From the NCBI GenBank assembly GCA_902590695.1, contig CACIXR010000004.1, forward strand, positions 62,001-126,000: DNA of 64,000 bases, written 5' to 3'. The notes under the pieces are model-generated. The model saw nothing but the letters and a program-made list of their open reading frames with translations. It did not search any database and was not told the DNA's origin. Positions within the stretch are counted from its first letter, which is position 1; every line of letters begins with the position of its first letter. Shown here one piece after another: positions 56,202-59,992 of the stretch. The stretch comes from an uncultured Alphaproteobacteria bacterium. Lineage in GTDB: Bacteria > Pseudomonadota > Alphaproteobacteria > HIMB59 > GCA-002718135. The position numbers were made by a program, and so were the translations under genes.

Positions 56202-56211
56202 TTATTTTTTT
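56193..56211 (-). terminator. A/T-only hairpin at the rpsT stop
   Basis: On the minus strand A7-TAA-T9 spans the rpsT stop codon and can form a seven-pair A/T stem, followed by a second T-run. A weak terminator at best, but one of few terminator-like structures in the window. Confidence 0.22.
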
Positions 56212-56462
56212 GAAATTTGTTTTGATAAAGAGGATAACTTTCTGGATATGTATTCTTTTTTAAAAATACCTTTTTTAGTTGCTCTAGCCATTATTGAGTT
56301 GACATTGCTAAAGGATTTTTGAATTTCTTCCTCATTTTTTGCTTCAACAGAAGATTTAAATTTATTTAGAGCGTTTCTAAACTTAGATAGGTATTGAGAA
56401 TTAACAGTATTTCTAGTTTTGTTCTGTCTTGTTCTTTTTTTTGCCGAAACGTGGTTAGCCAT
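56202..56462 (-). CDS. rpsT: 30S ribosomal protein S20
   Basis: 86 residues, basic, starting MANHVSAKKRTRQNKTR with the usual S20 helices (SAKKRTRQ, ARATKKGIFKKEYISRK). Binds 16S rRNA. rpsT upstream of dnaA is a frequent alphaproteobacterial order. A promoter match lies so close to the ATG that the mRNA may have almost no leader. Confidence 0.96.
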   Translation of the reverse strand: MANHVSAKKRTRQNKTRNTVNSQYLSKFRNALNKFKSSVEAKNEEEIQKSFSNVNSIMARATKKGIFKKEYISRKLSSLSKQISKK

Positions 56463-56514: not shown

Positions 56515-57333
56515 TTACTTATTATTTTGAAGTTTTGGGCAATAAAACGTAGATCTTCCATACTGAACAATCTTTTTAACCTTGTCATCACCCATTTTTT
56601 TTCCTTCTCTATTATAAACTTTAAAATTAGACTGAAAATTTCCTAATGTGCCATCAGTAGACCTATAATCTCGTATACTTGACCCCCCATATTTAATTGC
56701 CTTCGTTAAAATTTTTCTAATAGACTTAATTAGTTTCATAATGAGACTAATTTCTAAATTCTTACCCAAAGTAAGTGGTGAAATTTTAGCATCAAATAAT
56801 ATTTCAGAAGCATAAATGTTTCCTATCCCAGCAATTAATTTTTGATTAAGTAAAATCTGCTTAATGGGTACCTCAGATTTGGAAATTTTTTTAAATATAA
56901 TTTGTGCAGTAAGATCGGGGCTCAGAGCATCTATACCCAAGCTCATAACATACTTTTGTTTTTGAAGTTCATTTGTTTTTACTAAGTCGATAAATCCAAA
57001 TTTCCTTGGATCATTATAAATAAGCAACTTTTTATTTAAAAAGTATAGTATAAAGTGATCATGTTTTATTCTTTTATAGTTTTTATCGACAGTTTTTAAT
57101 CTTCCTGACATTCCTAGATGTATTACTAGAGAATAATTTGTATCTAAATCTATGATAATGAACTTTGCTATGCGTCTTAGGTTGGATATCTTTGAGTTAC
57201 GTAGTATATTAATTATATTATTAGGAATTTTAAAACGAAGTTTTGATGTATGAATTTTAACATTAGATATTTTTTGACTCAATATTACTCTAAGTCCTTT
57301 AACTGTAGTTTCAACTTCAGGTAACTCTGGCAT
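56515..57333 (-). CDS. mutM: formamidopyrimidine-DNA glycosylase without zinc finger cysteines
   Basis: Removes oxidised purines (8-oxoG, Fapy) and cuts the strand. 272 residues starting MPELPEVETT, with catalytic Pro2 and Glu3, helix-two-turn-helix around LLNQKLIAGIGNIYASE, and the C-terminal YGRSTFYC with its Arg. Odd: the Cys4 zinc finger is gone. Where the family has C-x-x-C ... C-x-x-C, this has REGKKMGDDK and YCPKLQ, with one Cys left. This resembles the zincless finger of NEIL1 and plant Fpg. Its ATG lies one base from the start of divergent ubiE. Confidence 0.93.
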   Translation of the reverse strand: MPELPEVETTVKGLRVILSQKISNVKIHTSKLRFKIPNNIINILRNSKISNLRRIAKFIIIDLDTNYSLVIHLGMSGRLKTVDKNYKRIKHDHFILYFLNKKLLIYNDPRKFGFIDLVKTNELQKQKYVMSLGIDALSPDLTAQIIFKKISKSEVPIKQILLNQKLIAGIGNIYASEILFDAKISPLTLGKNLEISLIMKLIKSIRKILTKAIKYGGSSIRDYRSTDGTLGNFQSNFKVYNREGKKMGDDKVKKIVQYGRSTFYCPKLQNNK

Positions 57334-57334
57334 A

Positions 57335-58066
57335 ATGAAAAAAGATCATAATTTTGGTTATACAAAAGTAAATTCAAAACAAAAGACTAAACTTGTTCAA
57401 AATGTATTTTCAAGTGTAGCTCCAAACTACGATGTAATGAATGACTTAATGAGCTTAGGAATGCATAGATTATGGAAGAAAAGATTCGTAGAGATCATGG
57501 ACATTAAAAAAAATGAGATTATCTTGGATGTTGGCTCAGGTTCTGGTGATATAGCTAGTGAAATTTTAAAAGAAGATATACCAACCAGTCTTTATCTTTT
57601 AGATCTAAATGAAGAAATGTTATTAGAAGGAAGAAAAAGATTAAAAAAAGAAAAAAATATAAAATATTTTATTAGCAATGCTGAAAAATTAAATTTTGAA
57701 AACAATTTTTTTGATAAATATACTATTTCTTTCTGCTTAAGAAATGTTACGGAGTATTTATTATCTATAAAAGAGGCTTACAGAGTTCTTAAACCTGGTG
57801 GTAAATATTGTTGCTTAGAATTTAGTACACCTAAATCATCTTTGATATCAAATTCATATAAAATTTATAAATCAAAAATTTTACCTCTATTAGGAGAGAT
57901 AATTGCCAAAGATAAAAATGCTTATGAGTATTTAAGTGAAAGTATTGATTTATTTCCATCACAAGAAGAGCTTAGCAAAAATCTTCGTGATTGCGGATTT
58001 AAAAAAGTTGAGACTATTAATTTATTTAATGGAATTGTAGCCATACATACTGGTTATAAAATATAA
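57335..58066 (+). CDS. ubiE: demethylmenaquinone/ubiquinone C-methyltransferase
   Basis: SAM-dependent C-methylation in ubiquinone (and menaquinone) synthesis. 243 residues; APNYDVMNDLMSLGMHRLWK at the N terminus, SAM loop LDVGSGSGDIASE, and YRVLKPGGKYCCLEFS. Start ATG lies one base from the mutM ATG on the other strand, so the promoter must lie inside mutM. The next gene is coaBC, whereas ubiB usually lies between the two. Confidence 0.95.
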   Translation: MKKDHNFGYTKVNSKQKTKLVQNVFSSVAPNYDVMNDLMSLGMHRLWKKRFVEIMDIKKNEIILDVGSGSGDIASEILKEDIPTSLYLLDLNEEMLLEGRKRLKKEKNIKYFISNAEKLNFENNFFDKYTISFCLRNVTEYLLSIKEAYRVLKPGGKYCCLEFSTPKSSLISNSYKIYKSKILPLLGEIIAKDKNAYEYLSESIDLFPSQEELSKNLRDCGFKKVETINLFNGIVAIHTGYKI

Positions 58067-59239: not shown

Positions 59240-59992
59240 ATGAATAATTACTCTGAGGAAGAATATAAAATTTTCAGCAGGTTATTTATTTTAAAAGAAT
59301 TTTCTGAAGAAAATCTAAGAAAATTATCTGACATAAAAATTGGTATTGTGGGTATGGGGGGGATAGGATGTCCTTTAAGTCAATATTTAGTCAACTCTGG
59401 AATTAAAGAATTGTTAATAGTAGATGGAGACATTGTTGAAAAAAGTAATCTTAATAGGCAAATTTTGTTTAATTTAAATGATATTGGAAAAAAAAAGGTT
59501 GATGTGGCAAAATATAAACTAAAATTAATCAATACTAAATGTAAAATTAATACAATTAATGAAAATATTAATTCTATAAATTTAAATTATTTAAAAGAAT
59601 GTTCTATAATTGTTGATGCAACTGATGATTGGTTCACTTCTAAATTATTAAATGAATATTGTCTTAAAAACTCAATCAACTTTTTATATTCCTCTGCATT
59701 AAGACACGATTTACAAATAATTCTTTTCAATAATTCCAGTAAAAATAATCATCTATGTTTAAATTGTATATTTCCCAACAAAGATGATGTTGATCTTCCT
59801 AGGTGTAGTGTAGTAGGTATTTCAGGTATTTCTGCAGGGTTAGCTGGTTTGATCGCTGCTCAAAAAATAATTAATTTTTATTTAAATTTAAAGGTTGAAA
59901 CTAATATAATGACAATTTCTGATGGAAAAAAATTAAGCATTGATAATATTGTTATTAAAAGTAAACATGATTGTTATTTAAAATCAATTTAA
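59240..59992 (+). CDS. ThiF/MoeB/HesA-family adenylyltransferase
   Basis: E1-like enzyme (250 residues) that adenylates the C terminus of a ubiquitin-like sulfur carrier such as ThiS or MoaD. IGIVGMGGIGCPL is the ATP loop; DGDIVEKSNLNRQILF holds the Asp and Arg of the active site; VDATDDWFT follows. Zinc cysteines are incomplete: CLNCIFP is present, but the second pair is reduced to one Cys in HDCYLK. A candidate catalytic Cys lies in PRCSVVGI. Whether it serves thiamine, molybdopterin or another sulfur transfer is unresolved. Confidence 0.85.
   Translation: MNNYSEEEYKIFSRLFILKEFSEENLRKLSDIKIGIVGMGGIGCPLSQYLVNSGIKELLIVDGDIVEKSNLNRQILFNLNDIGKKKVDVAKYKLKLINTKCKINTINENINSINLNYLKECSIIVDATDDWFTSKLLNEYCLKNSINFLYSSALRHDLQIILFNNSSKNNHLCLNCIFPNKDDVDLPRCSVVGISGISAGLAGLIAAQKIINFYLNLKVETNIMTISDGKKLSIDNIVIKSKHDCYLKSI

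Follow-up and report, generated by a model that had tools for sequence, protein, structure and literature searches.

Bacterial MutM (Fpg) usually carries a C-terminal finger in which four cysteines, here called C1 to C4, hold a zinc ion, and in the E. coli enzyme changes of these cysteines reportedly harm activity. The finger cysteines are also a weak point that thiopurine inhibitors hit: in Lactococcus Fpg the exposed C248 and C268 (C2 and C4) react with 2-thioxanthine, whereupon zinc is lost and DNA binding is abolished, and the buried pair consists of C1 and C3 (PMC4176347). As both the E. coli cysteine changes and the zinc loss caused by 2-thioxanthine in Lactococcus impair Fpg, loss of the metal is not free. 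Some change in the finger is nevertheless tolerated by the Lactococcus enzyme, since a Cys-to-His replacement at C2 or C4, where the His may still bind zinc, complements the mutator phenotype of an E. coli fpg mutY strain (PMC4176347).

Fingers without zinc are established for human NEIL1, plant and fungal Fpg and Mimivirus Nei1 (PMC9266487, PMC4176347, PMC3188539); an earlier note on the DNA described below had named NEIL1, plant Fpg and a viral Nei. Zincless human NEIL1 is resistant to 2-thioxanthine (PMC4176347). The accessible part of a 2011 survey of nine subfamilies reports highly variable ligand positions for just two clades, the plant/fungal one and that of NEIL1, describes the zincless fingers of these two as dissimilar in sequence, and gives loop lengths of 12 residues for the plant/fungal clade, 18 for the NEIL1 clade and 23 for bacterial Fpg (PMC3188539). 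The MutM that we describe here shares with NEIL1 and Mimivirus Nei1 a zincless finger, which is held to play an equal part in DNA binding (PMC9266487, PMC4176347), and with Arabidopsis Fpg (3twl, 3twk, 3twm) and other plant and fungal Fpg the zincless hairpin with its Arg (PMC9266487); sequence and fold matches to Arabidopsis Fpg were also obtained. NEIL1 and Mimivirus Nei1 are, however, Nei-type enzymes, and the structure match of Mimivirus Nei1 is weaker than that of bacterial Fpg (Z about 26 vs 35); NEIL1 was not among the 50 structure matches listed, which excludes nothing. The plant and fungal enzymes differ from our protein in having a specificity loop of 12 residues instead of one of bacterial length, and they are only 27-28% identical to it. 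Eukaryotic Fpg reportedly does not excise 8-oxoguanine (8-oxoG), judging by the title of one study.

In both sequence and structure our protein is matched best by bacterial Cys4 Fpg. This would speak for an origin apart from the NEIL1 and plant clades, a hint taken from the matches and not from a joint tree with the eukaryotic and viral clades. With the Cys4 enzymes of E. coli (1k82), G. stearothermophilus (1r2y) and L. lactis (1pm5) the protein has in common the whole fold, the catalytic residues, the Arg clamp, the length of the 8-oxoG loop and an equivalog score, whereas three of the zinc cysteines (in the family f1) or mostly all four (in the family f2) are missing from the MutM of the order concerned. 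The enzyme is well known, and what we describe is a genuine variant of it that spans a clade. Among the titles and abstract openings listed from PMC, which holds few subscription papers, none dealt with a zincless MutM of bacteria, be it order-wide or with an 8-oxoG loop of full length, or with the MutM of this clade, and a genome paper on AEGEAN-169/HIMB59 (PMC10308909) contains neither “mutM” nor “glycosylase”.

The window analysed is a stretch of 64,000 nucleotides from an uncultured alphaproteobacterium of the order HIMB59. Its mutM (fpg) gene lies on the minus strand (56515..57333), between rpsT (S20; 56202..56462, minus strand; TIGR00029) and a divergent ubiE-coaBC pair, whose ubiE occupies 57335..58066 on the plus strand (TIGR01934, 252.8 bits, cut-off 158.35). 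The translation, 272 aa long with the C-terminus ...FKVYNREGKKMGDDKVKKIVQYGRSTFYCPKLQNNK, passes both the equivalog cut-off of NCBIfam TIGR00577 (252.2 bits against 203.3) and the cut-off of NF002211 (287.6 bits against 212); a HIMB59-like MutM (L105) scores 246.7 bits with TIGR00577. Both the Pfam N-terminal domain and the H2TH domain (residues 132-222; 56668..56940, minus strand; PF06831, 88.7 bits, cut-off 34.7) are matched. This is the only Fpg/Nei-type gene found in its own assembly. A second Fpg/Nei paralogue with a zinc finger was sought and found neither in that genome (E<=0.01; assembly 71.88% complete) nor in the single-contig order genome G110 (E<=1e-10).

The Cys4 finger, usual in bacterial Fpg though not demanded by the TIGR00577 score, is lacking in the window protein. 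Its finger comprises residues 240-269 (56527..56616, minus strand), for which sequence, alignment and model predict a beta-hairpin, and it aligns to E. coli Fpg as GKKMGDDKVKKIVQYGRSTFYCPKLQ. In the alignment with the E. coli, Neisseria and Lactococcus enzymes C1, C2 and C4 are missing; retained are C3, as Cys265 in YCPKLQ (56539..56541, minus strand), and the finger Arg in the turn, Arg260 in GRSTFY (56554..56556, minus strand), which corresponds to the phosphate clamp Arg258 of E. coli Fpg. The earlier note, which had described a finger down to one Cys with its Arg kept, was right in both place and content. It had also named zinc ligands from nearby residues as what would speak against it; since Cys265 is the sole Cys of the entire protein and His is absent from the finger, the window MutM offers none, and the fingers of relatives likewise led us to reject ligands supplied nearby. 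Read from its sequence, the structure is a zincless finger with a retained Arg. The Pfam finger model PF06827 gave no match to the protein at E<=10 (HMMER filters drop most matches above about 0.1), and in a genome scan it scored 12.6 bits, the cut-off being 21.3. It needs to be mentioned as a warning for annotation that PF06827 is unfit as a requirement for a zinc finger in MutM.

A structural model, which had been proposed as a check, shows the finger as a folded and confident beta-hairpin. The AlphaFold2 model of the window MutM (without its Met) has a mean pLDDT of 93.8 and block means of 95, 96 and 92 in the finger (residues 241-270 of the Met-less chain), and that of a HIMB59-like f2 member without any finger Cys has a mean of 91.5 and finger blocks of 95, 97 and 97; such pLDDT values are weak proof of stability without zinc, because AlphaFold can model the fold of a zinc site confidently in the absence of the metal. 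Of the internal parts, the 8-oxoG loop has the lowest confidence in both models (blocks of 80 and 66 for residues 211-230 of the Met-less window protein). Over 257 residues, into the C-terminal finger, the window model superimposes on E. coli Fpg 1k82 with an rmsd of 1.4 A (Z 34.2), whereas the rmsd is 2.5 A for plant Fpg 3twm and 2.7 A for Mimivirus Nei1 3vk7; these VIA and Foldseek comparisons denote overlap of fold and nothing further. Sequence and model together predict that the finger is a beta-hairpin without metal ligands in which the Arg is kept, as in the zincless-finger H2TH glycosylases.

The remainder of the enzyme looks ordinary. The catalytic N-terminal Pro2-Glu3 (Pro1/Glu2 without the Met; 57325..57330, minus strand) is invariant in 101/101 and 176/176 alignment rows. 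In Pro1 numbering, Pro1 and Glu2 are presumably the catalytic residues, Met74, Arg109 and Phe111 those of intercalation, and we take Lys56, Asn171 and Arg259 to be further functional residues of Fpg; these eight, together with Glu5 and Lys157, do not vary among the 64 distinct full-length proteins of the order, and all 112 other rows share them, except for Arg259 in L050, a truncated f1 frameshift. The finger Arg is accordingly found in 51/51 f1, 13/13 f2 and 111/112 other rows, the gap being the same L050. Residues 215-238 (56620..56691, minus strand), which we take to have the role of the 8-oxoG capping loop, are as long as in other aligned bacterial MutMs: the region has 24 residues in 51/51 f1, 13/13 f2 and 112/112 other rows (one of them L050), and in the window protein it aligns without gaps to E. 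coli 1k82.

A comparison of 30 close relatives gave dN/dS values of 0.128 (whole gene), 0.064 (finger), 0.024 (finger arm bearing the Arg and Cys) and 0.026 (8-oxoG loop); in the first finger arm, the former site of C1 and C2, the value is 0.204 and so exceeds that of the gene. The finger as a whole is under purifying selection, and the loop is among the most constrained parts of MutM. Given a loop of unchanged length and such strong constraint, a changed choice of lesion, which the earlier note had considered, is unsupported. The GO pathway also seems to be kept in the order, as a MutY match at E<=1e-50 was obtained in 8/9 order genomes tried (in the ninth, G109, the match is weak and may be Nth). 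All of the order's MutY matches (L192-L199) fall below the TIGR01084 cut-off, as do those in 7/14 control genomes. The five order MutY loci inspected contain the FeS-cluster motif.

The finger state extends through the whole order. A mutM match was obtained in 132/162 order genomes, in 85/110 genomes of the window's own family and in 20/20 order genomes with a completeness of 90% or more and no more than 5% contamination; the 30/162 without any match may be gaps where genomes are incomplete. Three genomes (G072, G118, G140) hold only a mutM fragment without the finger, which leaves 129 readable fingers, 127 of them read by script (82 f1, 45 f2), that of L043 read by eye from a broken gene, and that of L050 read in the shifted frame of L323. 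None of the 129 has four Cys and His in sum, so the state is neither chance nor a sequencing slip; the highest sum, three, comes from a single genome (L042), which has one His besides two Cys. At the C3 position the tallied f1 fingers have Cys in 80/82, with one Val and one Ser, and the f2 fingers have Ser in 43/45, with one Cys and one Ala. In a named collection 45/46 close relatives (L051-L096) have the same finger, L093 being the frameshifted genome, and many of these are single-cell genomes already counted in the order set; a distant match from that collection, the Omnitrophota MutM L097, is Cys4. We also noted that one single-cell genome (L323/L050, G071 C6) has a frameshift in mutM shortly ahead of the finger and that the gene is broken in G103 C38 (L043), either through assembly or sequencing error or through real loss.

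Outside the order such fingers are uncommon in bacterial MutM, much as had been supposed: in 107 of 111 other Pseudomonadota MutMs the Cys and His of the finger add up to four or more, L140, L141 and L243 reach only three Cys without any His, and a single one, L148, is zincless. This sample is non-random, as it consists of the best-scoring loci and hand-picked ones from mostly smaller genomes, taken from 317 and 280 with a match; the 112 “other” alignment rows become 111 when the f1 frameshift L050 is removed. Within it the zinc site is, as far as the sequences tell, variable in shape, and the number of ligands is nearly always kept. Some alphaproteobacterial fingers are Cys3His. In many others (L131, L133, L137, L143, L146, L154, L161, L172, L176, L178, L180, L181, L187) C4 is missing while the first half has gained a third Cys (CxxCxC...C), so that the fourth zinc ligand appears to have moved. 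In L140, L141 and L243 an Asp may be the fourth ligand, and these could be intermediate states. The second zincless finger (L148:54-872, genome G192, an alphaproteobacterium; REGDPSPADPQTPIQRIVQSGRSTFYCPASQ) resembles that of the window in having one Cys (FYCPASQ) and no His; it differs in its tree position, phylogenetically separate from the order, and comes from the sole genome sampled of its own order.

In a tree of 101 MutM sequences the 37 rows of the order form one clade (99/94), within which f1 (99/95) and f2 (100/100) are each recovered, and L148 branches outside. The tree was built from MutM alone and midpoint-rooted for drawing; many of its deep forks are open and 26 rows are flagged for unlike composition. 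The simplest history would be that the zinc site was lost once, with C1, C2 and C4 gone before f1 and f2 diverged, that C3 stayed as an unligated core residue in f1 and that it then became Ser in most of f2. Because L148 lies outside the order clade, its loss is probably independent.

We consider it highly likely, from sequence and model, that the window MutM is a working zinc-independent 8-oxoG glycosylase that descends from one old loss. Its function has very probably been retained, its substrate is probably 8-oxoG/FapyG, and MutM of the window bacterium and of its order probably repairs oxidised guanine without zinc. In this scenario an ordinary MutM (8-oxoguanine/Fapy DNA glycosylase-AP lyase) would fold its finger as a zinc-free beta-hairpin, in which the Arg would still face the phosphates surrounding the flipped lesion, and 8-oxoG:C would still be cut. 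Zinc chelators would then have no effect on the enzyme, nor would the thiol oxidants by which Cys4 Fpg is disabled. The bolder claim, that a zinc-independent and oxidant-proof 8-oxoG glycosylase is the only Fpg/Nei enzyme of a whole ocean order, we put forward only tentatively; if true, it would mean that nature has separated the zinc site from 8-oxoG recognition, which the known zincless relatives with their shorter loops do not offer. A zincless MutM in this order leaves knowledge of the pathway itself unchanged. On the other hand, an order-wide loss with catalytic core and 8-oxoG loop length intact provides ready-made proteins for asking what the zinc is for, and these could show whether its loss buys oxidant resistance.

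Why the zinc site was lost is a separate matter. There is about an even chance that the replacement was neutral or nearly so, the ligands being labile in Alphaproteobacteria and compensating packing having let them go here. The moved ligands of many alphaproteobacterial fingers, the three outside MutMs with only three Cys and the separate zincless lineage L148 all point this way, although the state is fixed order-wide and constraint acts on the entire finger; a neutral origin is compatible with a later benefit. Such replacement is at least as likely as an adaptive dropping of an oxidation-sensitive zinc-thiolate finger as a gain for a surface-ocean cell, which we regard as possible but rather doubtful. 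The match is suggestive only: the order MutM has lost C2 and C4, which are the reactive pair in Lactococcus, plus C1, and the C3 retained in the window MutM corresponds to the buried C265 there. Against this, the small-genome Alphaproteobacteria read, all but L148, keep four Cys and His, the inhibition is known with 2-thioxanthine and not with a natural marine oxidant, and it is itself presumed that the window organism lives in the surface ocean.

Of the two adaptive ideas oxidation is the better one, and the sparing of zinc in zinc-poor surface water appears improbable. It is true that zinc is very scarce in pelagic surface water and that SAR11 genomes have minimised the uptake of metals other than zinc (PMC4771312). 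However, IleRS keeps its Cys4 (CxxC..CxxC) in 9/9 order genomes tried (in two of them, G106 and G108, the finger scores below the PF06827 cut-off despite all four Cys), and the window AccD keeps its Cys4 ribbon CVSC..CINC. This spot check of two zinc families argues against a general zinc purge, and zinc saving, the other benefit suggested earlier, is unsupported as a general strategy. General avoidance of Cys was likewise rejected, given a Cys content of 1.05% in the 49 ORFs of the window (a figure for the window alone).

That the protein still holds a metal, by means of unusual ligands (Asp/Glu, or Cys265 with others) or between subunits, is very improbable: the loop does contain Asp249-Asp250, Asp250 and Cys265 are invariant across the 30 close relatives, and the L042 finger has two Cys and one His, but the Asp pair is not kept family-wide and f2, with mostly Ser at C3, has no common ligand set. 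A decaying finger on a relic enzyme can practically be dismissed, since, despite the broken genes in two f1 genomes (L050, L043) and the raised dN/dS of the first finger arm, both the finger and its Arg arm evolve under stronger constraint than the gene and mutM is matched in every one of the 20 most complete and least contaminated order genomes.

One further protein of the window deserves mention. The usual layout of MoeB/ThiF-like proteins is CxxC..CxxC. The one encoded at 59240-59992 (plus strand) has one CxxC (CLNC) and a C-terminal end with a single Cys (HDCYLKS), and CLNC without a second CxxC recurs in the 43 relatives listed from L051-L096; this is possibly a second altered zinc site.
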